Shown in pieces: positions 1,627 to 25,192 of a stretch of DNA of 28,358 bases. The stretch spans positions 1-28,358 of the IMG/VR virus record IMGVR_UViG_3300046744_000064. One strand, 5' to 3'. The notes beneath the pieces are model-generated. The model was not told where the DNA came from and did no database searches. It saw only the letters and a list, made by a program, of their open reading frames with translations. This DNA comes from a virus. Made by a program: the position numbers and the translations under genes. Each line of letters opens with the position of its first letter. Positions within the stretch are counted from its first letter, which is position 1.

Positions 1627-2074
1627 CTTGACTTTGGTTATACTCTGGGTAACTCGCATTGTTGAAAGACATAAAGTCAATAAACCTTCTTGTGTAGTGC
1701 TCTGCAATAGTTCTGTGCTTCTCACTTAAGAAATCCAACTCCTCCTTAGTCATTGACTCGCTTGCTTCTGAGGAGTGCTTGTATGCACCCCCATTCGCAA
1801 TCGTATAGGCTGCGTGAGGTAGGTACTCTGTCATAGCGTAGTGGATCAACATAGGTTGTATGTAATCATCTACTAGACTTTCATAAGCGGCAGTTAAACT
1901 GCCTGCTATGATGTCGTTTCTTATCTTGTCGTACAGCTTAGAACCTAAAAAGTTCTGTATGTGTATCTCCTGAGCTATCTCAATAAAGGGTAGCAGCTTA
2001 TCACTATCTAGGTTTCCGCTGATAGTGCTATTGCGTACAATGTCCTCTTTCTTTATGAATAATACCTTAGCCAT
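1574..2074 (-). CDS. Head-tail connector (DUF6712-like adaptor)
   Basis: A 166-aa, mainly helical protein. The N-terminal pattern LFIKKEDIVRNSTISGNLDSDK, then FIEIAQEIHIQNFLGSKLY and YIQPMLIHYAMTEYLP, is the pattern I know from DUF6712-type adaptors of Bacteroidetes phages, analogous to HK97 gp6. It would form a ring under the portal that links the filled head to the tail. The ATG overlaps the last base of the portal stop (position 2074), consistent with a portal-connector cassette. Family recognition is from memory; the role follows from family and position. Confidence 0.7.
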   Translation of the reverse strand: MAKVLFIKKEDIVRNSTISGNLDSDKLLPFIEIAQEIHIQNFLGSKLYDKIRNDIIAGSLTAAYESLVDDYIQPMLIHYAMTEYLPHAAYTIANGGAYKHSSEASESMTKEELDFLSEKHRTIAEHYTRRFIDFMSFNNASYPEYNQSQDDDMYPDKNGVFNGWQL

Positions 2075-3831
2075 TATTTTCCGTAATTAGGGTGATGTCC
2101 TTGTCTTGGCATATCAATAGGTGCTACTGACACCTCATTAGGATTCTTTGGCAACTTAAACCCTGCCCTTACAGCCTGGTTCACGTTGACAAACTTAGTA
2201 CCCTGAAGGGCATTGCCTCCCCAAGGCTCTCCGTTCTTCGTTATCTTCTTCTTGTAAATTCTACGCTCCCATCTATGGTAACACGAAGGGCCACCCTTAT
2301 ACTTAAAAATAGAGTAGTTTTTACCCTTGTGGCCAAACTTCTTGTTTACACCTCTTGCACTCATCATACCGATGTCTTCCTTGCGGTACAGCTTCTTAGT
2401 GCGTAGCATCTTTCTACAGAAGTCACGAGTCTCTCCGTCAGGAGTCTTACTCGTGCCCTTCACATAAGTATAGCGAACCTTATAGAGTTCGCTGTCCTGA
2501 GACGAATCCTCCTTAGCAGATAGGTTCACAAGACCATTGAGGTAGCCCTCAACGTCAAAGTCCTCAGGCTCATCTTCTGTAGACTCGCTGTCTACATCAA
2601 TGAGCTCATAGTCTCCTTCTTGTGGTTCGTCTTCGCCTATCTGCTCAAGAAAATCCTCTAAGTCAATTTCAGGATCGTCAGCACTAAACTTGCGACCCGT
2701 TTGCTCCTCAGCAGTCTCGTTATCTAGCCCTTCATAGTCAATAAACTCTAAAGGCTGTAACGTCTTAAAGTAGAGGTTTAAGCTGATGTCATTGTAAGCT
2801 AGTAGTTCATCCATAGCATCGAGAATCATCTCTTGAGTGCTACGGATAACCGTGTTTTGGAATAGTAACGATGCCGTCTTAATCTCGTCAGCGTTACTAC
2901 CTAAACCTGAGCCATCCTTAATACCTAATAGCATAGGTGAGGTGATACGGTGGCCTACCATCAACTTCTGTGAGGACTCCTCAGAAAGGAACTCATACTG
3001 CTGTGAGGCATCACTTAACTGTACAGGCTCAATAGTTGCCTGCATCTCTTTGTTATCGTTAAACGCTAAAATGAACTTACCAGAGTTTGACGTACCGCTA
3101 AACTTCTGTATGATTCTACGCTCAATCAATTCACGCTCCTCCTCCGTTGGAATCCCGTTATTGAAGTTAATCAACATCGAAGGCGAAAGGCCGTTCTTGA
3201 TATTGTTGATGTGGTAGTTTGCTACCTCCTCCTCAAGTTCCGCATACGGCAAAGCCCCTTGGTAATCTACAGGGCTATAGTAATAGTACCCTGCTCTGTA
3301 CGGCTTGATACAATATATCTCTAGCTTATCGCCTCCTTTACCATACCCGTAGGCAGGGATACGCTCAGGCTCATAGCCCTTCTTGCGAATCATAGACCAA
3401 TCCTTGCTGTACCAATAGGCTTCTATTTCCCCGTCCTCATTCATCTTCTCATAGCGAAGAGTCTCAATAGGGAAGTGCTCAACCTGTGCAATAGCTGACT
3501 TATCCTCATTATAAATAACTTGGAAGGCCGCCTGGCCCATAGCCTTTAAATCAAAGACTACCCTGCGTAGGCAGTGCTTAGAAAACATTGAGACCATACG
3601 AGCATACTGCTCAGGTCTTCTACTTGCATCTGTTGCACCAATGCCCTTACCATAGATCAACTCACACACACCATTGATGATGGCGTTGTTAGTTGCTGAC
3701 CCATTGTAGCGGTCTATAAGGTATTGGTAGTAGTTGTTATCCCCACCATACTCAACCCACTGCTTGCGGTTATTCTCCTGCACAACAGGGGTCGTGTAGC
3801 TGTTGAGGTTTACGATTCTTATGTTACTCAT
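2074..3831 (-). CDS. Portal protein with extra C-terminal Cys/His domain
   Basis: 585 aa. The first ~370 residues match Bacteroidetes-phage portal proteins: an N-terminal DNNYYQYLIDRYNGSATNNA stretch, the segment NYHINNIKNGLSPSMLINF, and the long-helix region HRITSPMLLGIKDGSGLG followed by the clip/stem region. The portal is the dodecameric DNA gate of the head. After an acidic linker (about 375-435) comes a separate basic C-terminal domain, about 445-585, with FCRKML (C472) and GGPSCYHRWERR (C517, H519). This part is not standard portal and resembles minor-head-type modules. The gene overlaps the upstream 108-aa gene by 4 nt and touches the connector gene downstream. Confidence 0.85.
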   Translation of the reverse strand: MSNIRIVNLNSYTTPVVQENNRKQWVEYGGDNNYYQYLIDRYNGSATNNAIINGVCELIYGKGIGATDASRRPEQYARMVSMFSKHCLRRVVFDLKAMGQAAFQVIYNEDKSAIAQVEHFPIETLRYEKMNEDGEIEAYWYSKDWSMIRKKGYEPERIPAYGYGKGGDKLEIYCIKPYRAGYYYYSPVDYQGALPYAELEEEVANYHINNIKNGLSPSMLINFNNGIPTEEERELIERRIIQKFSGTSNSGKFILAFNDNKEMQATIEPVQLSDASQQYEFLSEESSQKLMVGHRITSPMLLGIKDGSGLGSNADEIKTASLLFQNTVIRSTQEMILDAMDELLAYNDISLNLYFKTLQPLEFIDYEGLDNETAEEQTGRKFSADDPEIDLEDFLEQIGEDEPQEGDYELIDVDSESTEDEPEDFDVEGYLNGLVNLSAKEDSSQDSELYKVRYTYVKGTSKTPDGETRDFCRKMLRTKKLYRKEDIGMMSARGVNKKFGHKGKNYSIFKYKGGPSCYHRWERRIYKKKITKNGEPWGGNALQGTKFVNVNQAVRAGFKLPKNPNEVSVAPIDMPRQGHHPNYGK

Positions 3832-4154
3832 CGGTATATGTATCCGTTATTGTCTGAGTTGTACTGCGTGTACTGCCCTTGATTGACCGTGTACTTCTCG
3901 TAATCGGCTTGGTCAGTACAGAACACACGGCCTCTATAGACCTCGTTAGAGCCACTTACTCGTATCGCATAGAACCTTCCCTCCTTGAAGGAGTAGGAAG
4001 GGTCTATAACCATATAATTACGGCTTCTAGTGCCCGTTAAAGAGACTGTACTGCTTGTATTGGTTTCCTCATCTGTAATAACCACAGAGAGGGAAGTGTC
4101 ATAGGCTCTTGGTACAAACTTAATTGTACTGTCTGTAGTGGTTACTATATGCAT
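3828..4154 (-). CDS. Small beta-rich structural protein, 108 aa
   Basis: 108 aa, predicted mostly beta, with a C-terminal YRGRVFCTDQADYEKYTV segment followed by a Gln/Asn/Tyr-rich tail. It directly precedes and overlaps the portal gene by 4 nt (ATGA), and it is the first gene after the terminator that ends the tail-tube unit. Similar short proteins next to the portal occur in flavobacterial phages, as I recall. Function unknown; a virion component is the likeliest guess. Confidence 0.75.
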   Translation of the reverse strand: MHIVTTTDSTIKFVPRAYDTSLSVVITDEETNTSSTVSLTGTRSRNYMVIDPSYSFKEGRFYAIRVSGSNEVYRGRVFCTDQADYEKYTVNQGQYTQYNSDNNGYIYR

Positions 4155-4175
4155 AATAGGTTAACCCTTTTGCTC
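4155..4175 (-). promoter_or_regulatory. GGTTAACC leader element before the portal unit
   Basis: On the minus strand the leader reads GCAAAAGGGTTAACCTATT directly before the ATG at 4154. Nearly the same string, GCAAAGGGGTTAACCTTTT, precedes the ATG at 14696. The core GGTTAACC is a perfect 8-bp palindrome. It could be an operator, a phage-sigma start region or a translation signal; the sequence alone does not decide. Confidence 0.5.
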
Positions 4176-4186
4176 AGACATTGTTA

Positions 4187-4226
4187 CAAAACAAAAGAGG
4201 GGGACGTACTTAAACGTCTCCCCTCT
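4187..4226 (-). terminator. Intrinsic terminator after the tail-tube gene
   Basis: Minus-strand hairpin with arms at 4214-4226 and 4196-4207 (AGAGGGG-A-GACGT pairing with ACGTCCCCCTCT, one bulged base), followed by TTTTGTTTTG. It separates the tail tube from the 108-aa/portal genes. A smaller hairpin (GTGCT/AGCAC) lies just upstream, near the tube stop codon. Confidence 0.8.
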
Positions 4227-4280
4227 CTAACCAAACCAGAGTGCTATGCCCTAGAGCACAAATATACACTTATTTATCAA

Positions 4281-4853
4281 TTACGAGTTAGTTCCCTCCG
4301 TAATAGTAATTGTACCTGTTAATCCTGCCATCTCGCTGAATGGGTAACCTACCTGTGTAGAGTCAACCTCCATAAAGTTTGCAGGTAGAACCTCTTGCGC
4401 TGAGAACGTCAAGGTGTACCCCGAAAGGTCTCCCATTGCTGCACCCGTTACAATACTTCCTCCGTTTACGTCAGCACCATTCTTCAATCCCATCATCATA
4501 CAGTTTCCGTTGTAGTCTTCTACAACAATATGAGGACGGCCATAAGCCAACAATTTAATTTCTTTGTGATCTTCCTTGCTCAATTTTTTCAAAGTCAAGC
4601 TAAGGGTTTGGTCAAAGAAAGTAGTCCCGTTCTCACGAGATGCTGTGATTGCCTGCTCAAATGAACTGTTTCCTTTTAGTTCGTATTTGAATGCGGTCAA
4701 GTTGTTTGATGAATCACCTGTCATATTAGTGATTTCATCAGATGCCTCTGTTACCGTACCTAAATTTCCGAAGTCTACGAAGTAAACATTCTTTAGGCCA
4801 CCAACTACATCTTTACAGGGTTCTTTTCTACCCAATGTTAATACACACGCCAT
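4281..4853 (-). CDS. Major tail tube protein (probable)
   Basis: 190 aa, predicted beta-rich, with a Gly/Thr-rich C-terminus (GLTGTITITEGTNS). It resembles phage tail tube proteins in size, composition and the pattern of a strand-rich core with a central KLSKEDHKEIKLLAYGR helix. The gene stands alone between two terminators directly after the capsid gene, as expected for a very abundant virion protein. The identification is from pattern and position; a head decoration protein is the main alternative. Confidence 0.65.
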   Translation of the reverse strand: MACVLTLGRKEPCKDVVGGLKNVYFVDFGNLGTVTEASDEITNMTGDSSNNLTAFKYELKGNSSFEQAITASRENGTTFFDQTLSLTLKKLSKEDHKEIKLLAYGRPHIVVEDYNGNCMMMGLKNGADVNGGSIVTGAAMGDLSGYTLTFSAQEVLPANFMEVDSTQVGYPFSEMAGLTGTITITEGTNS

Positions 4854-4868
4854 AATATAGTTTTTATG

Positions 4869-4905
4869 AAAAAAGGGCAGACAGGCTGTAGCCCACCTGC
4901 CCTTT
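4869..4905 (-). terminator. Strong intrinsic terminator after the capsid gene
   Basis: Minus strand: AAAGGGCAG pairs with CTGCCCTTT (arms 4897-4905 and 4872-4880), with an inner GGCT/AGCC stem and a downstream T-run. It lies 22 bases beyond the capsid stop and just before the tail-tube start, so it would cut most capsid transcripts to a single gene. Confidence 0.9.
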
Positions 4906-4927
4906 AAATTATTTAATTAGTTGCTTC

Positions 4928-5854
4928 TTAGTTGTAAAGAACAATCTCAGTACCGATACCGTATTGGATACCTGCAGTAAAGCGCATTACAACACGAACG
5001 TTTTGCGAACCATCTAAGTCAGCCATATCTAACAACTTAACCTCGTTAGTGTCAGCCAACAAGCCTGTACCGAAGAACAAGTTTGATTTCTGAGCAGCAG
5101 CCATAGTGTTATCAGAAAGACCTGGAGCAACAAAGATTTTAACACCGTCAAATGCCAAGTTCTGACCGTTGAACCAAGTAGTTCCTTCGCCATTCAAACC
5201 GTTAGCACCTAGACCTGAAGCACCAAAGCCACCTAATGCACGAACGTAAGCACGAGCAACGTTAGAAGAAACGTAAAGGTAAAGGTCTTCTTTTCCGTAG
5301 ATAGCAGTAGGTACAGCATCAACTACTTTACCCATCTCAGTGATAACGTTTGCAGCCGTTACAGTTGTACCTGTTACGTCTACAACGTCAGAATCTGCTT
5401 CCCATAATACTTCGAAGCCATCGAACTCACCTGCAGTTGCGTTAGCACCTTGCCAGATGTTGTTCTCCATTTTCTCAGCTACCTTAGAAGCAACGTGGCC
5501 GATAAGGAAGTCAGAGAATGCAGGAGGCAAGTTATCGAATGAGCTGTAGCCCATTTGGATTGCTTCCCAATCGCTGCGGAAATCTTTCTTACAAAGCTCA
5601 AGGTTCACTTGGAACTCCTCAGGCTGAAGAATACGCTCAGTAAGTGTAAGCGTTGAAGTGTCAGAGAAATCACAAGTAGCGTCTTTGACGATAGCATCCG
5701 TAGATACTTTCTTCATTACTTCCTTGAATTTCACATTTGGTTTAACTGTGATACCACCACCTTCAATGGTATCTGCACTTAGCAAGGCAGCAGAGAGGTA
5801 TTTCCCTGCAAATTCACCTGCGTAAGTCGTAGTAATGCTAGTAGTTGTAGCCAT
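4928..5854 (-). CDS. Major capsid protein (HK97-fold type)
   Basis: 308 aa. Features seen are an N-terminal Thr-rich start, the segment LTERILQPEEFQVNLELCKK, then DNLPPAFSDFLIGHVASKVA, VSSNVARAYVRALGG, and a C-terminal NVRVVMRFTAGIQYGIGTEI strand. This order is what I know from Bacteroidetes-phage major capsid proteins with the HK97 fold. It self-assembles into the icosahedral shell. There is no obvious long N-terminal delta domain, which fits a separate scaffold (the acidic 193-aa protein upstream). The gene has its own candidate promoter element and its own terminator. The start is the only upstream ATG in a good position. Confidence 0.85.
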   Translation of the reverse strand: MATTTSITTTYAGEFAGKYLSAALLSADTIEGGGITVKPNVKFKEVMKKVSTDAIVKDATCDFSDTSTLTLTERILQPEEFQVNLELCKKDFRSDWEAIQMGYSSFDNLPPAFSDFLIGHVASKVAEKMENNIWQGANATAGEFDGFEVLWEADSDVVDVTGTTVTAANVITEMGKVVDAVPTAIYGKEDLYLYVSSNVARAYVRALGGFGASGLGANGLNGEGTTWFNGQNLAFDGVKIFVAPGLSDNTMAAAQKSNLFFGTGLLADTNEVKLLDMADLDGSQNVRVVMRFTAGIQYGIGTEIVLYN

Positions 5855-5866
5855 TTCTATATATTA

Positions 5867-5902
5867 TTATTGATTATTTACTTATTAAAACGGAAGGTCA
5901 AA
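5867..5902 (-). promoter_or_regulatory. Candidate promoter of the capsid gene
   Basis: On the minus strand, TTTG (5899-5902) is followed after 20 nt by AATAATCAATAA (5867-5878), 12 nt before the capsid ATG. The same 12-mer, with TTTG 18 nt upstream, precedes the SSB-like gene at 23078. TTTG near -33 matches the Bacteroidetes primary-sigma consensus; the second box does not match TAnnTTTG, so a phage-specific signal is possible. Confidence 0.5.
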
Positions 5903-6343
5903 GTTTGATGCACGAGAGATGCGAGATGAGTTCCACTCACGCTTCAAATCGTCAATAACGCCATCAGCGTTATTTACCATTTCTTTAGCCTCCTCAAAAT
6001 CATTATAAATGTCAGAAGGGTCTAAACCAAGATCGTCAGCACTGCTTTCAATCTTTTTAAGAATATCACCTAAACGCTCTGCAGCCTCTGGCAAGTAAGA
6101 CATTTCGCTGTTGATGATGTAGTCATCAACCTGCATATAAATGTCAGTCATCTTATCTTCTAACTCTTCAAGAGCTTCGTATGCAAAGTAAGAAGTTGTG
6201 CCGTATGCACCTTCTACGTCACGGAATGCGCTCTCTGCATCATCTACTAAAGACAATTTTACTTGCTTGCCTTGCTTGCTGAATTTAGCAGGCTTCTGAG
6301 CCTTGCCCAATTCAGCCCATAATTTTTGTACTCCCTTTTTCAT
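5885..6343 (-). CDS. Capsid-proximal 152-aa protein, paralogue B
   Basis: 152 aa, acidic and mainly helical, ending NFDLPF. The N-terminal layout (a short Lys/Trp helix, KPAKFSKQGKQVKL) and the LGLDPSDIYNDF segment parallel the neighbouring gene of identical length. It lies directly upstream of the major capsid gene and touches the previous gene by one base. Possible roles are scaffold or capsid accessory protein. Function is not recognised. Confidence 0.75.
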   Translation of the reverse strand: MKKGVQKLWAELGKAQKPAKFSKQGKQVKLSLVDDAESAFRDVEGAYGTTSYFAYEALEELEDKMTDIYMQVDDYIINSEMSYLPEAAERLGDILKKIESSADDLGLDPSDIYNDFEEAKEMVNNADGVIDDLKREWNSSRISRASNFDLPF

Positions 6344-6801
6344 TATTTAATCTGTGTTTTTAACTCGTCAATAGCATCCTCTAATTCTGCTGCTGTGCCA
6401 TAAAGGGTTGAAAAAATTTGGATAGCCTCGTTAACATCGCTACCGCTGTAATCAATCAAGTCTTCATAGTCCATACCAAGATTTTCTCTTGCAGCATTAA
6501 AGCTCTTGAGTCTTCTTGTCAATTCATCTCCTTGACCTTCCCAAAACACAGAGTCAGCATCCTCTAACTGAACCAATCGGTTTTTGAAGCCAACCACGAA
6601 GTCATCTACAAAAGAGCGGAACTCTCTGTAAAACTCAACTTGTCTTTCATTGTCAAAAGCAACAGATAAAAGGTCTTGTAATTGTTCAGAAGTGTTTAGC
6701 TTAACCTCACGACCCTCCTTAGGTTGCTTAGACAGGTTTCGTTTCGGCTCTTTAGCCGCACGAACCTCGTCCCATACCTTTTCTATCTTGCGCCAACTCA
6801 T
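6343..6801 (-). CDS. Capsid-proximal 152-aa protein, paralogue A
   Basis: 152 aa, helical and acidic. The start MSWRKIEKVWDEVRAAKEPK, then NLSKQPKEGREVKL and LGMDYEDLIDY, match the pattern of the next gene, which is also 152 aa. An ancient tandem duplication is likely. It overlaps both neighbours by one base. A role in head assembly is inferred from its place between the scaffold-like and capsid genes. Confidence 0.75.
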   Translation of the reverse strand: MSWRKIEKVWDEVRAAKEPKRNLSKQPKEGREVKLNTSEQLQDLLSVAFDNERQVEFYREFRSFVDDFVVGFKNRLVQLEDADSVFWEGQGDELTRRLKSFNAARENLGMDYEDLIDYSGSDVNEAIQIFSTLYGTAAELEDAIDELKTQIK

Positions 6802-7382
6802 TACTCAGCAATTTTTGCCATTACACGATCCAAAGTGCTACCGCCTTTTTTAGACTGACCCAAGTTAACCTGAGGCTTTGCCTTAGTCTCTGGGCTGTGC
6901 TTCATCGGCTTACGAGCAGGCTTTGCTTTGCTAAGTTTCTCCTTAGCTTCAGCAGCCATCTTCTCTTCTTTCTCCGACATCATCTGCTCTACCATTGCCT
7001 TGATTTCGTTAACGACCTCAGCCAACTCCTCACGAGTGACATAGTTCATTTCCTCTTCAGCAGCTTCTACTTCTTCAGCAGGAGCTTCTTCCCCTGCAGG
7101 TGCTTCTTCAGGTGCTTCTTCTTCACCTCCTTCACGAATCTCTCCGATGATACCTTCCTCAGCAACCACGAGAATACGCCCGTCTTCCATTTCGTACTCA
7201 CCAACAGGGACAGCTACACGCTCTTCTTCTGATACAATGAATACCTCGTTACCTGACTCAAAGGCCTCGGCTTCTAGGACAGTTCCGTTTTCTAATGTTG
7301 CTTGAGCAGCAGCGACTTTTACTTGATCCTCTGAGAGGTTCAAGATGCTCATAATTTTTGATAGGGTCTCTTGTGACTTCAT
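6801..7382 (-). CDS. Scaffold-like acidic protein
   Basis: 193 aa. The N-terminal half holds a small beta region (VFIVSEEERVAVPVGEYEME), then a Glu/Ala-rich stretch (about 90-120), a coiled-coil-like helix (ELAEVVNEIKAMVEQMMSEK), and a basic C-terminus (KPARKPMKHSPETK). An acidic, low-complexity, helical body with a basic tail between the protease and the capsid gene is typical of phage scaffolds. The tail would bind the capsid and the protease would clear the scaffold. No sequence family is recognised, so the role is inference. Confidence 0.6.
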   Translation of the reverse strand: MKSQETLSKIMSILNLSEDQVKVAAAQATLENGTVLEAEAFESGNEVFIVSEEERVAVPVGEYEMEDGRILVVAEEGIIGEIREGGEEEAPEEAPAGEEAPAEEVEAAEEEMNYVTREELAEVVNEIKAMVEQMMSEKEEKMAAEAKEKLSKAKPARKPMKHSPETKAKPQVNLGQSKKGGSTLDRVMAKIAE

Positions 7383-7433
7383 AACTATGTTATCTATATA
7401 GGTTAATTAAATAATTGGCTTTGCGTTACATTT

Positions 7434-8381
7434 TTAGATTTGGTCTAAAGACTTCAACTTACTCTCTGCCCAACGCTTGGCAGCCTTACCACCCCACAAG
7501 AGGTAAGAGATGTAACCACAGCTCTCTTTGTCTCCTTCATCGTAGTATTCCTCTGCTCTGCTGAGGTAGCTGTACATCCTCTTTATTGTTTCAACTGAGA
7601 CATTACGGCCTGCTTCTAAATCGGCTGCTCTCTGCTTCCCCACATCCGTGGCGCACTTGTTGTTCTGCTTCTCGTTTAACTCTCTCCCTCGCTTGGCGTT
7701 GTTTCGCACCGCTTCGGGATAGTCATTATAGCTTTCAAGTTCTGTCTTCTTACCCGACTTGTATCTCTTGTCTTTTTTAATAACCGCCTTAATAGCACTT
7801 AGCTTTTCCTCAGCGTATACCTCGTCTGCTTCCTTTTCAATGGAGGCTACTGAGTCTGCACTCATATTTACCTTATCCATAAAGTAGCCCTCAATGCTAA
7901 AGCCCTTGACCTTACCTGTCTTTACCCAATCATTCCAAATCTCATCATTGTTGACTTTCATTGAAACCATCCAAGTCCCTACAGGTAAGTCCATACCATA
8001 TAAGCGGCTCTTGTCCTGCTCACCTTCTATGATCCACGACTCAACGGCTGTCAATCCTTCGATGTCCACCTGGTGCTCTAGCGTAGCCTTGCTTTGGTTT
8101 CCACTCATAAAGAAAAGCTCGCTTGCCTTTCTTACCGTGTCTTTGCTGAAGTAGATGTAATACTCCTCCTCACCATCTCTTCTATAGATAGGCTTGTTAG
8201 GGATGAGAGCTGCACCCATCAGGATGCGCTTCTCATCGTCAATACTCTTTAGCTCTACTTTCTTTTCCTCCTTGAGTGCTATAAAGTCCTCCTCAATAGC
8301 AGGCTGCTCAACTACAGAGATGGCTTGTATTCCTGTGATAAAAGCCTCCTCGTCAATTATAAGTTCAATTATATTCATCAT
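7434..8381 (-). CDS. XkdF-like prohead protease with C-terminal extension
   Basis: 315 aa. Residues about 1-170 fit the XkdF-type phage serine protease family: GIQAISVVEQPAI, LEHQ (H103) and KGFSIEGYF (S162) carry the probable catalytic His and Ser. Such enzymes cut scaffold and capsid during head maturation. Residues about 210-310 form a second module (SYNDYPEAVRNNAKRG, CATDVGKQRAADL, RMYSYLSRAEEYYDEGD, ISYLLWGGKAAKRW) that I know as a recurrent phage head-protein domain without a clear function. The gene overlaps the tape-measure stop by 4 nt (ATGA) and stands upstream of the scaffold-like gene. Confidence 0.75.
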   Translation of the reverse strand: MMNIIELIIDEEAFITGIQAISVVEQPAIEEDFIALKEEKKVELKSIDDEKRILMGAALIPNKPIYRRDGEEEYYIYFSKDTVRKASELFFMSGNQSKATLEHQVDIEGLTAVESWIIEGEQDKSRLYGMDLPVGTWMVSMKVNNDEIWNDWVKTGKVKGFSIEGYFMDKVNMSADSVASIEKEADEVYAEEKLSAIKAVIKKDKRYKSGKKTELESYNDYPEAVRNNAKRGRELNEKQNNKCATDVGKQRAADLEAGRNVSVETIKRMYSYLSRAEEYYDEGDKESCGYISYLLWGGKAAKRWAESKLKSLDQI

Positions 8382-10288
8382 CCGAAACTTGCTGTATTTA
8401 CTTTATTTCTATCTAATTCTTGCTGCGTGGTAACGTCTCCTGCAACTACATACGCTTTCACAGGGCGTTCCTGTGATACACTTTGTGCTAATTGATTGAT
8501 ACCACTTGTGCCTACAATGTTAAACTGAGGTGTTTGACTTGGTGCGGTAGGGGTATCAATGCTACCCTTATCGCTACTGCCAAAAGTAGTCTGTTGAATG
8601 CTTGCTACCTGAGCAAGACCCGTAGCCCCTGCGATAGCTGCATTAGCTACACGAACGGGGAAGGGTAATAAACCATCTGCACCCTCCGCTTTAAGTGCAC
8701 CTATAATTGCTTGGTAGGTACTCACTAATGCCTGCCCTTGGCTCATACGCTTCTGAATGGCAAACGCCTTCTTAGCTCTCTCCTCATCTTCTCCTGCAAA
8801 GGCTTCAGCTAATGAACTCACAGCCTCTAGGCCAGAGTTAGCAATGTCAAATTTCGCATCTCTTAACTCCTCTTCCTTCTCCTTGTTTAGTTCAAAGGTC
8901 TCTTCATTAAGTTCCCGTACCTCATTCTGATACTCCGCCTCTATGACTTTCTTCTCGTCAGCTAACTGCTTGTACAGCTCACTCTCTATGTCTAGTTGCG
9001 CCATCTGCTCCTCAAGGGCAGCTAGGCGCAGGCTCTTTATCTCTGCAAGGTTCTTCTTCTGTATCTCTAGCTTCTTTGACTCCCTGCGCTCCTCAATCAG
9101 GGCTGCCTCTGCTTCAATCTCTGAGAGTTCAATAGCACGCTCACCTGCCTCAACTGCTGCATCAAATCTCTCTTGATCCAAGTCTCTAAGCTCCTCAGTA
9201 AGCTGTAAGTTACTGCTGTCTATATCAGCTTGTACCTGCTTAACATCATTTAGCTTTTCCTCAAAAGCTATACGGTCTTCATCTAGCCCTGAGATTTCAG
9301 CCTGCTGACGTAAAGACTCTGCTTGAATTTTTAGCTGTGCCTTCTGCTTCTCTAAAGACTCTACCCGTAAACGGTTTGCTTCTCTAATAAGCTCTTCACG
9401 TCTGTTAAGGCTGATATTCTCCTCATTCTGTAAACTCTCAGCCTCTTCAATTAAACCTATGTACTCGGTTTGTATCTGGTTAATACGAAGGTCAGCCTCC
9501 TCTGCTAACCTACGCAGGGATACTATTTTTTCGGCTTGCTTTGTAACCTCCTTAATGTCTATGTTCTGAATAGCATCAGCAGCGTTCTGTGTGATTTCAC
9601 TAACACCGTTGGCTATCTCTCCTACAGCATCAACAAAATTAGTAGCGACATCCTTAGCGTTCTCTGCTAGGGCCTTACCTGTCTCTGCTATTTTTTCCTT
9701 GGTCTCTTCAATCTCTGCATTAAGTGCAGCGAGCTTATCAGGGTCTTTGTTACCGAAGAAACTGTTCTCCCAAGCACGTTGTGCTACAAGCACACCTAAC
9801 TTAATGCCTTCTAGATTTAAGACTAACAAATTCAATGCCCCTTTAAGTAGCGAACCTAACACCTTACCCGTCTTCTCAAAGCTCACATTGCTATTAGACA
9901 CCGCCTGATAAACCGTATCAAACGCAATAGATAAGCCGACAGAAACCTTCTCAAGGGCATCTATGACAGGCTGAGTATTTAGAGCCGCATCCTTTAAGAA
10001 GTTCAAACCGTCAATAAGGAACTTAATACCCGTAGCCTTTAACGCTAGACCAAAACCTGTAACTCCCTTAGTCAGCTTTTTAAGTGCTGCTAGGTTGCTC
10101 TTGTTAGCCTCAGCGTTTTCCTGAGCTGCCTTTGTATTGTCCTCAACAGCTTCCGCCACCTCCTCAACATTCTTTGAGGTCTCCTTGGCAGCATCACCAA
10201 CACCCTCAATAGAATCCGCTAAGGCATCTAATTTCTTATCTATGTCTGAGGTGTCCGCCTCTACCTTAAATGTCTTTTCTACCGCCAT
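8378..10288 (-). CDS. Tail tape measure protein
   Basis: 636 aa. A long alpha-helical, heptad-rich protein: coiled coil around 30-70, a hydrophobic segment about 75-160, then a very long coiled coil about 260-500 rich in Glu, Lys, Leu and Gln. A hydrophobic Ala/Gly segment follows (ANAAIAGATGLAQVASIQQT), then a Pro/Ser linker and a small C-terminal region. This is the usual architecture of tape measure proteins, which set tail length and line the tail tube. At 636 aa the tail would be short to medium for a siphovirus. It starts inside the end of the 47-aa gene. Confidence 0.85.
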   Translation of the reverse strand: MAVEKTFKVEADTSDIDKKLDALADSIEGVGDAAKETSKNVEEVAEAVEDNTKAAQENAEANKSNLAALKKLTKGVTGFGLALKATGIKFLIDGLNFLKDAALNTQPVIDALEKVSVGLSIAFDTVYQAVSNSNVSFEKTGKVLGSLLKGALNLLVLNLEGIKLGVLVAQRAWENSFFGNKDPDKLAALNAEIEETKEKIAETGKALAENAKDVATNFVDAVGEIANGVSEITQNAADAIQNIDIKEVTKQAEKIVSLRRLAEEADLRINQIQTEYIGLIEEAESLQNEENISLNRREELIREANRLRVESLEKQKAQLKIQAESLRQQAEISGLDEDRIAFEEKLNDVKQVQADIDSSNLQLTEELRDLDQERFDAAVEAGERAIELSEIEAEAALIEERRESKKLEIQKKNLAEIKSLRLAALEEQMAQLDIESELYKQLADEKKVIEAEYQNEVRELNEETFELNKEKEEELRDAKFDIANSGLEAVSSLAEAFAGEDEERAKKAFAIQKRMSQGQALVSTYQAIIGALKAEGADGLLPFPVRVANAAIAGATGLAQVASIQQTTFGSSDKGSIDTPTAPSQTPQFNIVGTSGINQLAQSVSQERPVKAYVVAGDVTTQQELDRNKVNTASFG

Positions 10289-13662: not shown

Positions 13663-14244
13663 CTAGAAAGGTTTTATCTCCTTCAAAAATTCATCTACAT
13701 CTTTACCGAGGGCCACCAAGAAATCAGGCGGCAGGTTTTCGAACTCGTCTCTAAACGGCTGACTAAACCACTCTGTCTTGGGTATACCTCGCATCTTAAT
13801 CTTGCGAGCAATACCCAATGCAAAGCCCTCCTTTGCTTCTTCAGTCTGCTTAACAAACTGATTAGTCTCAGGGTCTCGTACCTTAATCCTGCGTACCCTC
13901 ATCCATTCAAGGATAAACTTCGTAGGTGGTTGCTTACTCCTAAATGAGAAACGGCTGTTACCTGGTACTCTATACTTAACACCGTCAACACCCTCATCGA
14001 GGTAAGTACCATAAGGCACATTAAAGAAGAAGGAAAGTGCAGGGTGTGGTGATAGTGCGGTTACAAAACTGACACTATCCTTTAGGCTTCCCGTGGCTAC
14101 ATTTCTCCGTCTCTTTATAGTCCCGTCATTATATCTAATGCTACGAGTAGCCCCTAGGTTGAGTTGTGCTGCTTTCTTAACACGCTCACCAAAGGCTTTC
14201 ATCACCGCCTCCTGATTGGCTTTTCTTATCCTTGTTGCTGACAT
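13663..14244 (-). CDS. HK97 gp10-like tail completion protein (probable)
   Basis: 193 aa from the ATG at 14244. An earlier ATG at 14289 would lie deeper inside the preceding gene. The protein has an N-terminal basic helix (RIRKANQEAVMKAFGERVKK), then NVATGSLKDSVSF, the segment FFFNVPYGTYLDEGVDG and a helical C-terminus. The pattern of ATGxLxxS, then YGxYxxxG, is characteristic of gp10-like/neck proteins that connect head and tail. It is followed directly by the large tail proteins. Role assigned from pattern and context. Confidence 0.6.
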   Translation of the reverse strand: MSATRIRKANQEAVMKAFGERVKKAAQLNLGATRSIRYNDGTIKRRRNVATGSLKDSVSFVTALSPHPALSFFFNVPYGTYLDEGVDGVKYRVPGNSRFSFRSKQPPTKFILEWMRVRRIKVRDPETNQFVKQTEEAKEGFALGIARKIKMRGIPKTEWFSQPFRDEFENLPPDFLVALGKDVDEFLKEIKPF

Positions 14245-14696
14245 ATGTCTATCGTGTTCGGTACACTGATACTCAAGGTTACTGACCAACCTACAAGTAG
14301 ATTCTCGTAGCGATCCATAAACGGCTGACAGCTTGGGTCACCCTGTAGCTGATACTTGTCAGAGAATAGGTCTCCACGCTTTAGGGCTTGCACCAAGTCA
14401 TTAACAACATAGAACTGAGTGTTGAGTAAATCCTGTTCAATGCCTACACCGTAGAATGGCTCTGCCTCATCCCTTACATCTTGCTTGCTTACGTCTGCAA
14501 CATCCATACACATAACGCTAATAGAGAAGGTAGCAATCTGATTGCTGATTGTAGCGTTATCTATCATCATATGTGACAATGGGAAGATGCTCTGCTTGTT
14601 CAGGTCTACCTCCATAATGTCCCCAAAAGTAACCGTGTTCACCTGAGCGTTCGCCTCTAGGTGGTTCTTGATTGTTGTAAGAATATCATATACCAT
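14226..14696 (-). CDS. Tail terminator/completion-like protein
   Basis: 156 aa. MVYDILTTIKNHLEANAQVN at the start, a strand region IATFSISVMCMDVADVSKQD, a helical VVNDLVQALKRGDLF and a C-terminal GWSVTLSISVPNTIDIC. I know this order from flavobacterial phage proteins next to the gp10-like gene; it fits a tail-terminator-type fold (helix plus beta sheet). It starts 3 nt after a conserved GGTTAACC element and overlaps the next gene. Confidence 0.6.
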   Translation of the reverse strand: MVYDILTTIKNHLEANAQVNTVTFGDIMEVDLNKQSIFPLSHMMIDNATISNQIATFSISVMCMDVADVSKQDVRDEAEPFYGVGIEQDLLNTQFYVVNDLVQALKRGDLFSDKYQLQGDPSCQPFMDRYENLLVGWSVTLSISVPNTIDICQQQG

Positions 14697-14697
14697 A

Positions 14698-14746
14698 AAA
14701 GGTTAACCCCTTTGCGCCCTATTTGTAGCACAAGCGGTTAACCTTT
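14698..14746. repeat. Inverted repeat AAAGGTTAACC ... GGTTAACCTTT
   Basis: Perfect 11-nt arms at 14698-14708 and 14736-14746, separated by 27 nt. The right arm overlaps the TAA that ends the frameshift extension and the left arm abuts the ATG at 14696. Each arm contains the palindrome GGTTAACC. It could fold in RNA between the chaperone and tail-terminator genes, or be a paired protein-binding site. Confidence 0.75.
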
Positions 14747-14995
14747 CTTCTTAAGCAGCATTCTCTCTACCTCATTCTTCTCCTTGTCGAATATCATTTT
14801 AAGGAATACACGCTGAAAAGGTAGGTTAGTCACAGACTCGTATTTGTTTATGTCTCCGCCTGCCAGATGGTCTATGCTTCCATACCAACCCCACTTCCTT
14901 GAGAAGTTGGCTTGAAGACTGAGGTCAGTATGTCCTTCGGGTTCTTCGGCAAAGAGTTCGGGGTATCGCTCAATAACTCCTTTCTTAAAGTCCAA
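14738..14995 (-). CDS. Frame -1 extension of the tail chaperone (gpT-like)
   Basis: An 85-codon frame that opens at the T-run inside the preceding gene. It has no ATG at a useful place; the first possible start is TTG inside the slippery site. The product reads LDFKKGVIERYPELFAEEPE, then FSRKWGWYGSIDHLAGGDI, KYESVTNLP and a Lys-rich end. The KWGWYxxIxxLAxGD pattern is the type seen in second-frame parts of tail assembly chaperones. A -1 slip would fuse it to the first 161 residues of the chaperone, giving a 246-aa protein. Confidence 0.7.
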   Translation of the reverse strand: MDFKKGVIERYPELFAEEPEGHTDLSLQANFSRKWGWYGSIDHLAGGDINKYESVTNLPFQRVFLKMIFDKEKNEVERMLLKKKG

Positions 14996-15477
14996 AAAAA
15001 AAGCGTTGCACCCAACCCTGCCCCTAATGGGAAATCTTTATATCCTTCGTTTGGCTCGTACTCTTCTATGTCGTACTTGTCCCCGACCCTATCCGTGATG
15101 GGTCGGTAGAGTACGCTTAGTGCTTTGTGCATATCCTGCACATCTGTAAGGTGACTGTCTAAATCTATGTACTCCCCAAAGGTCAACTCCTCTAGGTTAG
15201 GTATGAAGCCGTAGTCCTTACCCCTGTACTTTACTATGGGTTGCAGCTTGTGATCTTGAGCCAACATCTCAAAGAGTTCATTGGTCATAGCATAGAAGTC
15301 AGTAGTCTGCATCTTGAGGGCTTCCCGTATTGGTAGCCCTAAGAATATCTCTGCAGCTTTAAGGGTCTTGAAATTACTCTCCCCCTCTTCAATCTGCACA
15401 TACCTCTGATACTGCCCAATGGTTAACTCATTAGCATTCTCAGGGAATTGTACCTTAACGTACTGCGTATCTCCCAT
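14872..15477 (-). CDS. Tail assembly chaperone-like protein (gpG-like, frame 0)
   Basis: 201 aa. NELTIGQYQRYVQIEEGESN at the N-terminus, a helical middle, YGFIPNLEELTFGEYIDLDS, MHKALSVLYRPIT and GAGLGATLFFWTLRKELL, ending in a Pro/Ser-rich tail. In gpG/gpGT systems the short form and a minor frameshifted long form both act on the tape measure before tail-tube growth. Here the slippery T-run lies in the LFFW codons (residues 160-162). It overlaps the terminase end by 23 nt. Unusually it is next to terL, not next to the tape measure. Confidence 0.65.
   Translation of the reverse strand: MGDTQYVKVQFPENANELTIGQYQRYVQIEEGESNFKTLKAAEIFLGLPIREALKMQTTDFYAMTNELFEMLAQDHKLQPIVKYRGKDYGFIPNLEELTFGEYIDLDSHLTDVQDMHKALSVLYRPITDRVGDKYDIEEYEPNEGYKDFPLGAGLGATLFFWTLRKELLSDTPNSLPKNPKDILTSVFKPTSQGSGVGMEA
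14993..15003 (-). other. Probable -1 ribosomal frameshift site (9-T run)
   Basis: The minus strand reads CTT TTT TTT TGG in frame 0. Slipping back one base gives TTG GAC TTT, which enters the 85-codon downstream frame. Nine consecutive T allow perfect re-pairing of both tRNAs. A homopolymer length error in the assembly would produce the same picture and must be excluded. Confidence 0.65.
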
Positions 15478-16609
15478 AATTAGGTCTTGTTAGTTTATTG
15501 TAGGTTGCGTATCGCATAGCATCAATGGCGTGGTTAAATGCATCTATAGGTTTGTTGAGTAGCTTGCCGTTCTTGTCCTCCACCCATTTATAGTTCCTCA
15601 TCTCTTTAACCAGGTTGTGACCTACTGCGTGCAGCTTGTATCTCTTGAGTACGTCAATACCTGCGTTGATGGAGTCAGCCCCCTTCTTGGTGGGCTTGAC
15701 ATTCCATCCCATCCTATACAGTTCCTCTATACTCTTAGGCTCTGCACTATCAGCATATATCTCTGCCCTGCGGTCAATGCCTAAGGCTCTCATCTTTTCT
15801 GAGATGTCCCTGTTCGTGAGGTTCGTTTCGTATATAAGTTCTTTCGCATAAAGACTATGGTCATCGCCATATACCGCCACGAGAGAAGTGGGGTCATTAG
15901 TGAAACCAAAGTCCATACCATAGGAGAGGAATTTAGCCTGTTCGGGAACTTCCTCTTCCACAAACGTAAAAACCGTTGCCTTGCTCTGACCCCTTTCACC
16001 CAATCCGTATATGCGCCAATAATCTTCATCCGTATCCCTGAGCCTCTCAATCTCAGATACAATAGTAGTATCAAGAAAGGGATTGTCAACATAGGTAGAC
16101 TTGATGAAGGTAACATCGTCTCTTGTGAGTAGCTTGTCGTATATCCAATGGAAGTCATCGGAGGGGTTGTAGTCGAGGTATATCTTTTCGGTGGTTCTAA
16201 CAAGGAGTTGGAAGAAGTCTTCCCAAGTAAGCTCGTTTGCCTCATTACAGAACAGGTAGTTCCTTCGTGCACCTCTCTTCTTCTGGGGTTGGTCAAGGCT
16301 GACAAACTCAATGATGTTTCCGTTGAGCCTGTAGATATGCTCTGATTTGTTATGATCCTTCTCATTGTATAGACCTGCATTAGTAAGTATCTCAATAAAG
16401 TCCCTCATAGCCGTCATTTTAAGTGACGGCAGGGACTTCCTTACAATAGTAAACACCTTACCCCTCTCGGATAAAGCAAGCACCATTATAAGCTGTAAGA
16501 GTGAGTAGGTCTTACCAGAACGTGTACCCCCTTGATTAACTACAATCTTAGTAGGGGCATTCCAATTCCTCTCAAATATCTCACTCGTCTGTAGGGCTAC
16601 GCTTGACAA
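15455..16609 (-). CDS. terL: Terminase large subunit (PBSX / Terminase_3 type)
   Basis: 384 aa. The ATPase domain has Walker A GGTRSGKT at residues 27-34, a Walker B-like YLFCNEANE at 118-126 and the segment IYLDYNPSDDFHW near 143-155. The nuclease domain has GMDFGFTNDP (D233), ADSAEP (D287) and DAFNHAIDAMRY near 356-367 as likely metal ligands. The enzyme pumps DNA into the prohead and cuts it. At 384 aa it is compact but complete for the family. The start overlaps the small-subunit gene by 29 nt. Confidence 0.93.
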   Translation of the reverse strand: MSSVALQTSEIFERNWNAPTKIVVNQGGTRSGKTYSLLQLIMVLALSERGKVFTIVRKSLPSLKMTAMRDFIEILTNAGLYNEKDHNKSEHIYRLNGNIIEFVSLDQPQKKRGARRNYLFCNEANELTWEDFFQLLVRTTEKIYLDYNPSDDFHWIYDKLLTRDDVTFIKSTYVDNPFLDTTIVSEIERLRDTDEDYWRIYGLGERGQSKATVFTFVEEEVPEQAKFLSYGMDFGFTNDPTSLVAVYGDDHSLYAKELIYETNLTNRDISEKMRALGIDRRAEIYADSAEPKSIEELYRMGWNVKPTKKGADSINAGIDVLKRYKLHAVGHNLVKEMRNYKWVEDKNGKLLNKPIDAFNHAIDAMRYATYNKLTRPNYGRYAVR

Positions 16610-23123: not shown

Positions 23124-24245
23124 TTATTCATACAACGGCAATAATCTTTTAGCAATTTCCGCTACCACGTCAACCGTGACTGCATTGCCGCACTGCTTAT
23201 AGCGTTGTGTGTTACTCATCTCCTTGACCTTTCCTTCGTACGATCCATAAAGCGTATGGTTATCAGGAAACCCCTGAAGGCGTTCACACTCTATAGGAGT
23301 TAGTCTACGGATGCGGTAGTCTTGTACAAATTGGTCGGTATTACCTCCTTGTCCACTTGATGTGTGTATTGTTCCTGCCGTGTCTTTTAGGTGTCGGTCA
23401 GTAACTTTACCCTTAGCATCTCTTGTATAGCCTATTATTTTAGGCTCTACCACGGCTTGTTCACATAAGGTGTCAAGTGTTTGCGCTTTCTGCTTACCCA
23501 CTCGACCCCTGCGAGTAGTTGAGTTGATAGCAGTTAGGTTTATGCTGTCACCTACCTCAGCTTCTTCATACCCACATTCCTTAGCACTCTTTACTTTTAT
23601 AAAATTAGCACTTAGGTTTATCTTATACTCTGCACTACTTAAGGTGTGTGCAACCTGAAGTTGCTGCTCCGCTTCTCTGCGTGATTTGTTAACCAATCTA
23701 TCATTTTTTGTGATAGGAAAAACTCCTCCATAATCTCCTCTGGCTTCTGCAAGATGTCCGACAAGGTAGACTCGCTCTCTATTTTGGGGTAGAAACCACG
23801 ATGTATTAAGCAGTTGCCATTCAAGTCTATAGCCCCCAAGGTCAACAAAGGCTTGGAGGATTGCCGCAAAGTCTGCCCCATCGTTTGAGCTGAATGCTCC
23901 TTTAACATTCTCCCAAATAAAAACTCTTGGTCTACATTCTCCGATAAGCCGTATTGCTTCAGAGATAAGACTGCTTCGGTCTCCTTCGAGACCCCTGCGA
24001 TTTCCAGCCTGACTAAAGTCTTGGCAAGGACTTCCAAAAGTGATGAGGTCGATTCTTGGGAGGTCTGCCCCCCGAACATCTCTAACTGACCCGACATAGG
24101 TTGCATCTTTAAATTGATTTTGATACACAGCGATAGCGTGCTTGTCTACTTCGGAAAACCAAGAGGTCACTTCATAGCCTGCACGCTCGAAGCCCAAATG
24201 AAAGCCTCCAATACCGCTGAATAAATCTAGTTGGTTAATCTTCAT
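23124..24245 (-). CDS. C5-cytosine DNA methyltransferase (orphan)
   Basis: 373 aa with all main motifs: I DLFSGIGGFHLGFE (7-20), IV GSPCQDFSQAG (catalytic C74), VI ENV (112-114), VIII QNRERVY (154-160), a variable target-recognition region about 170-290, IX RRLTPIECERLQGFP, and X CGNAVTVDVV. It transfers methyl groups from S-adenosylmethionine to cytosine C5. No restriction enzyme is nearby, so it likely shields phage DNA from host restriction. It overlaps the resolvase end by 11 nt. The specificity cannot be read from the sequence. Confidence 0.95.
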   Translation of the reverse strand: MKINQLDLFSGIGGFHLGFERAGYEVTSWFSEVDKHAIAVYQNQFKDATYVGSVRDVRGADLPRIDLITFGSPCQDFSQAGNRRGLEGDRSSLISEAIRLIGECRPRVFIWENVKGAFSSNDGADFAAILQAFVDLGGYRLEWQLLNTSWFLPQNRERVYLVGHLAEARGDYGGVFPITKNDRLVNKSRREAEQQLQVAHTLSSAEYKINLSANFIKVKSAKECGYEEAEVGDSINLTAINSTTRRGRVGKQKAQTLDTLCEQAVVEPKIIGYTRDAKGKVTDRHLKDTAGTIHTSSGQGGNTDQFVQDYRIRRLTPIECERLQGFPDNHTLYGSYEGKVKEMSNTQRYKQCGNAVTVDVVAEIAKRLLPLYE

Positions 24246-25158: not shown

Positions 25159-25192
25159 AAAAAAAAAGCCACCTTTCTAGGGGTGGCTTTTA
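25159..25192 (-). terminator. Strong intrinsic terminator
   Basis: Minus strand: AAAGCCACC pairs with GGTGGCTTT (arms 25182-25190 and 25165-25173, 8-nt loop) and then nine T in total. It lies two bases after the stop of the 50-aa gene and isolates it from the early unit. Confidence 0.93.

Follow-up and report, generated by a model that had tools for sequence, protein, structure and literature searches.

An uninterrupted run of nine T within a marine phage gene on the minus strand of the window, by which we mean the whole 28,358-base IMG/VR virus record that was analysed, raises the question of whether a single start serves two proteins here, and if so, what shifts the reading frame and what the two products do. 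A sequence-only reading of this DNA had proposed a pair of tail chaperones made by a programmed -1 frameshift in the manner of lambda gpG/gpGT. When the sequence was re-read, its coordinates and lengths (201 aa, 85 codons, and 246 aa) proved correct, as did its count of the T run. The slip region of the minus strand is GCA ACG CTT TTT TTT TGG ACT; one base back after the second TTT it becomes TTG GAC TTT, in a frame that stays open to 14738, and the resulting fusion of 246 aa consists of frame-0 residues 1-161 followed by the 85-aa -1 extension. The features referred to below are:

15455..16609, minus strand: terminase large subunit (TerL; Pfam Terminase_3, 2.8e-23), immediately upstream
14872..15477, minus strand: frame-0 ORF of 201 codons, comprising the shared N-terminal domain (residues 1-161) and a 40-aa frame-0 tail
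15002-14994, minus strand: T9 run, the slip site, with exactly nine T
15001-14995, minus strand: in-frame heptamer T_TTT_TTT
14738..14995, minus strand: -1 extension of 85 aa plus stop, with TTG as the first post-slip codon and a conserved KWGWY motif
14872..14994, minus strand: dual-coded overlap, with the frame-0 tail WTLRKELL...GMEA over the -1 extension
14226..14696, minus strand: downstream neighbour of 156 aa (phrog_30964)
8378..10288, minus strand: probable tape measure protein (PHROG tail length tape measure protein, 1e-9)

Relatives were gathered with the fused protein and then with successively more distant ones. All 80 of the first relatives carried the second half in the -1 frame, as did 333 of the 334 loci of the first set (those with both halves placeable, the window counted as one), and the C-terminal part was likewise in the -1 frame in all 80 loci of an additional, more distant set. 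Overall, the -1 offset was found in 413 of 414 loci, representing about 359 distinct 270-nt junctions (293 in the first set and 66 new in the second, some contigs having been fetched twice) and 20 clusters below 50% identity; clustering at 90, 70, and 50% protein identity gave 135, 69, and 20 clusters, and loci of the same cluster do not count as independent. Most loci have T9 and the remainder T10 or T12, these three lengths accounting for 412 of the 413 loci with the -1 arrangement. The exception, L238, has only T8 with the heptamer intact, while its 90%-identical neighbours have T10, and is a genuine shorter run. The phase of the run varies between clades (three phases) and the flanking codons change, with the -1 offset remaining constant. 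Runs of at least nine T are rare elsewhere in the 135 loci kept at 90% clustering (13 other runs in 720 kb), yet one occupies the slip site in 135 of 135 clusters, and it is therefore not a chance feature. Homologues thus keep both the two-frame arrangement and the slippery heptamer (in frame in 333 of 333 loci), in agreement with the proposed -1 shift and its products of 201 and 246 aa. The recoding site is real and strongly conserved in a large Bacteroidota phage family.

A single relative has the other direction: at L210:3487 (IMGVR_UViG_3300040750_000001) the run is T11 and the second half lies in the +1 frame. This single contig either has its run length wrong or presents a situation that the polymerase, but not a -1 ribosomal shift, could serve. 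An alignment scan of genome contigs returned one relative, a Bacteroidetes MAG contig. Among isolates, the window gene's family (phrog_32199) includes Nonlabens phages P12024L and P12024S, in which the gene is about 25% identical and occupies the same place after TerL; P12024L was read to have T9 and the -1 offset, and in both phages the halves are annotated as separate hypothetical proteins.

The P12024L record places the second of its two CDSs at an internal ATG, as if there were two genes with the -1 frame independently started. We consider this very unlikely, since 308 of 333 loci lack any ATG, GTG or TTG in the -1 frame ahead of the site, since the nearest downstream ATG or GTG in the first 81 loci, if there is any, lies at least 50 codons in, since the first -1 codon is TTA, not a usual start, in 54 of 135 clusters, and since fused homologues exist. 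In the window and the first 81 loci, the stretch of the -1 frame that leads from its upstream stop to the site contains no ATG, GTG, or TTG. The sequence-only reading had found no usable ATG in the second frame, which in the window holds for GTG and TTG before the site as well, and relatives with a self-started, separate second gene were not encountered.

The fused homologues were reached through a fold search with the model of the N-terminal domain: it returned Flavobacterium phage 6H, which in turn pointed to FPSV-F7, laban6-1, Ingeline, and Leef, and each of these last four encodes the homologue as a continuous ORF of 259-301 aa. When the fusion was compared with the continuous Duneviridae ORFs by hhalign, the alignment extended across the junction with a probability of 95.6% (E 1.3e-8). 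Proteins of phrog_25418 (Duneviridae and Helgolandviridae) are homologous to fusion columns 87-230 and are the same two-part protein, encoded however in a single ORF of 259-301 aa without a frame change, whereas the window family uses two frames. Because distant Duneviridae homologues encode it as one ORF, this alignment indicates that the long form is a real architecture; other phages make the protein in one piece, and the window family therefore appears to split it at the slip site. Microscopy shows Ingeline and Leef to be siphoviruses (PMC8776804). In Flavobacterium phage 6H (L417:10352-10927) the homologue stops early, as an ORF of 191 aa, while near-identical FPSV-F7 has one ORF of 293 aa; the two differ by an indel near a short T run, which is either real or a sequencing error. 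The model of the N-domain and that of the extension each matched five phage proteins of 241-267 aa in BFVD (A0A6J5N0W0, A0A516L611, A0A516L5A8, A0A6J7WJY4, and A0A6J5SVK3), and by these model matches some relatives appear to be continuous genes, naturally or through homopolymer errors.

Whether the frame-0 tail is a protein in its own right was judged from codon identity at residues that are identical between paired relatives. It was 62% upstream of the site, 77-80% inside the overlap, and 64% past the frame-0 stop. The two Phe codons of the run were TTT TTT in 49 of 49 and 48 of 48 comparisons, while elsewhere 27% of Phe codons are TTC. Clades differ in how long the frame-0 tail is, which provides a control: codons 36-55 were 82% identical in clades whose frame 0 is open there, and 59% and 61% identical where it has stopped, although the pairs used share members (up to three pairs each) and these percentages are not independent samples. 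Because codon conservation tracks frame 0 and not the position in the gene, the frame-0 tail is itself under selection, and because synonymous sites are frozen at the run and in the overlap but relaxed past the frame-0 stop, the codon data indicate that both frames are under selection. This agrees with the sequence-only reading, to which neither frame had looked like debris. A near-invariant Leu in the frame-0 tail was considered as further evidence of selection and dropped, as it follows partly from the conserved -1 codons.

These results also bear on the possibility that the run is a homopolymer sequencing or assembly error in a truly continuous gene. The distant homologues are indeed continuous, L210 has T11 with another offset, and two plasmid-filed records of a family member (L422 and L423) show T8 and T7, one of them with other indels. 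An error of this kind is nevertheless refuted by the junction counts, and we leave it practically no probability: the -1 offset persists with T9, T10, and T12, in three run phases and about 359 distinct junctions, and such a constant offset is the opposite of how homopolymer errors behave. Moreover, the frame-0 tail is selected and synonymous positions are frozen at the site. With regard to the claim that 8 or 10 T would make a single gene, this is correct for 10 (and also for 7), whereas 8 opens the +1 frame. Records L422 (CP045836.1) and L423 (NZ_CP040811.1) are filed as complete plasmids, one from Lysinibacillus and one from Escherichia fergusonii, each about 66-67 kb long; both contain the same region of a family phage, 99.8% identical and twice per record, with T8 or T7, and look like assemblies of contaminating phage rather than plasmids. 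Homopolymer tracts are also classic sites of phase variation (PMC3711429), and replication slippage could in principle make the run an on/off switch. That reading, which predicts a mixture of in-frame and out-of-frame relatives, is extremely unlikely, since none of the relatives is in frame and the direction differs only in L210.

The proposed function was approached from structure, family, and gene neighbourhood. The AlphaFold2 model of the frame-0 product has a pLDDT of 85, with residues 10-170 well modelled and mostly above 90, and its last helix (151-175) spans the slip site at 160/161; the model of the extension (pLDDT 88) consists of a helix followed by a three-helix bundle. The two halves of the fusion were modelled apart and not as one chain, and from these separate models the residues after the site would continue a helix in both frames. 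The proteins of the window gene had no match in Pfam or NCBIfam and none to a named PHROG family; they matched phrog_32199, of unknown function (E 5e-9 for the window, and 99 of 99 family members scanned), and 6 of 99 members had weak matches to phrog_166 'tail protein' of up to 2e-4. The top structural match in the PDB was the HK97 tail assembly chaperone 2ob9, and it was weak (Z 3.7, 64 residues, 3.5 A), too little to count as proof by itself. Foldseek returned nothing at E<0.001 for the N-domain against the PDB, and a profile search against PDB sequences gave nothing significant, while one match among viral models was named tail assembly chaperone (E 0.05). For the extension, a single weak PDB row (Z 2.5, rmsd 13 A) was left unused.

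Compared with lambda gpG/gpGT and the HK97 equivalent represented by 2ob9, the window gene shares a short product with a -1 extended one, a shift near the end of the first ORF, neighbours of the tail module, and the weak fold match to 2ob9. As in that type, its frames overlap and the second, reached by the -1 shift, lacks its own start. It differs in having a pure T run in place of the lambda site, in its selected frame-0 tail, and in the lack of detectable sequence homology. The position differs as well: lambda gpG/gpGT lies between the tail-tube and tape-measure genes, while the window gene is beside TerL and four genes ahead of the probable tape measure gene, with the tail-tube candidate elsewhere. 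TerL is upstream in 263 of 312 relatives, and the 156-aa protein is downstream in 281 of 300; by inspection, this neighbour and the next gene resemble a tail terminator and a tail completion protein. Since gene position was tested and is not that between a major tail protein and the tape measure gene, and since no homology to a named tail chaperone family was found in Pfam, NCBIfam, or PHROG, the gene is not filed as a member of the gpG/gpGT family.

The earlier comparison with gpG/gpGT is upheld for the short and long pair made by a -1 shift; in position the gene differs, since it adjoins the terminase. By analogy, the pair probably works like gpG/gpGT in building the tail, with the short form abundant and the long one scarce. 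The name tail chaperone is plausible given the 2ob9 match and the tail-like neighbours, even though no Pfam, NCBIfam, or named PHROG family supports it. Alternatively, the recoding may be real and the protein a head-tail connector or another neck or tail-assembly protein instead of a tape-measure chaperone. This would agree with a place that adjoins the terminase and the terminator- and completion-like genes and is four genes away from the tape measure, with the Ingeline homologue, which comes after the adaptor region, and with the missing sequence match to tail chaperone families. We consider it rather unlikely, as no PDB fold matches better than the HK97 chaperone, tail chaperones typically come as such a pair of products, and the viral-model match at E 0.05 is named tail assembly chaperone. 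Overall, two products made by a -1 shift at T9 and acting in a gpG/gpGT-like role are the best explanation, to which we assign a probability of roughly 0.65.

Elsewhere in the window, 2074-10288 on the minus strand holds the probable tape measure, protease, capsid, tail-tube candidate, and portal genes in an unusual order, far from the usual terminase-portal-capsid-tail. A second nine-base run, of A, lies between ORFs at 25159-25167 and is apparently unrelated. The DNA methyltransferase gene at 23124-24245 (minus strand) is overlapped by a second long ORF (23639-24106) on the same strand in another frame.

Turning to how the shift is made, we infer slippage on the homopolymer. From one start, most transcripts or ribosomes would yield the 201-aa frame-0 product, and a fraction would shift by -1 at T9 to give the 246-aa product, which has the 85-aa, mostly helical domain bearing KWGWY in place of the frame-0 tail. 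The -1 frame could be entered in two ways, either by slippage of RNA polymerase, producing mRNA with one extra U, or by tandem tRNA-Phe slippage on U_UUU_UUU. The sequence-only reading spoke of a programmed frameshift; the conserved -1 shift stands, and either the ribosome or the polymerase may be the slipping machine.

The site suits both machines, since the heptamer has the X_XXY_YYZ form in all loci where it was scored and 412 of 413 loci with the -1 offset satisfy an uninterrupted T_n with n>8, the range of transcriptional realignment (PMC3711429). Transcription errors in A/T runs are mostly one-base insertions, which become more frequent as the run lengthens, and the RNA:DNA hybrid spans about 9 nt (PMC5574713). 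Folding of the 60 nt after the site, for structures without pseudoknots, gave no signal of downstream structure (mean z about 0.1), Shine-Dalgarno-like motifs were not enriched upstream and were fewer than at control positions, and Rfam found nothing in the window at the gathering threshold. Stimulators are usual, but not obligatory, for -1 programmed ribosomal frameshifting. In the lineage to which the hosts belong, Shine-Dalgarno pairing is rarely used (PMC8710568). A tree from which the junction residues had been excluded shows at least 19 changes in the T flanks of the heptamer and only one drop of the run below nine T. If the flanks were independent, 7 of 130 runs should be shorter, compared to one observed, in a permutation that ignores relatedness. 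Where the downstream flank is lost, all 5 clusters have TTT as the preceding codon, compared with 3 of 64 clusters otherwise, a comparison that amounts to only three independent pairs on the tree.

A purely translational shift, with a paired tRNA-Phe slip on U_UUU_UUU and the extra Ts reflecting a hydrophobic protein sequence, is a serious alternative that we rate below even odds. The in-frame heptamer is universal among the 333 loci, L238 retains it at T8, the known tail cases use ribosomal frameshifting (PMC5009743), and a hydrophobic-F-F-hydrophobic stretch alone can explain most of the Ts beyond the heptamer. On the other hand, E. coli ribosomes shift far less readily on U_UUU_UUU than on A_AAA_AAG (PMC5009743), neither downstream structure nor an upstream Shine-Dalgarno motif was found, and the run fell below nine T only that once among the boundary changes. 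In addition, the last base of the heptamer is never C, though TTC/CTR would be synonymous in both frames when the next -1 residue is Leu. From these sequence patterns we slightly favour transcriptional slippage over ribosomal frameshifting and give RNA polymerase slippage about an even chance of being the mode; both machines may contribute. Shigella mxiE and spa13 and Thermus dnaX (A9) likewise make products of different length by slippage on an uninterrupted homopolymer of about nine bases (PMC5009743, PMC3711429), but these are bacterial genes with RNA evidence, while the window holds a phage assembly gene read from sequence. In the literature searched, no description of transcriptional slippage in a phage tail gene was found. 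Tentatively, and at less than even odds, RNA polymerase slippage on T9 could set the ratio of a short to a long tail-assembly protein in this large family of aquatic Bacteroidota phages, with the tail of the short form as a selected second C-terminus.

For annotation, the finding means that gene callers break such a gene into two hypothetical proteins and that homopolymer errors in assemblies disrupt it. In the dual-coded tail, two C-termini are clearly both under selection. Frameshifted tail chaperones have been taken as a ribosomal device, and a family of hundreds of phages with at least nine T and no stimulators found makes the slipping machine testable, directly so in the cultured phage Nonlabens P12024L.
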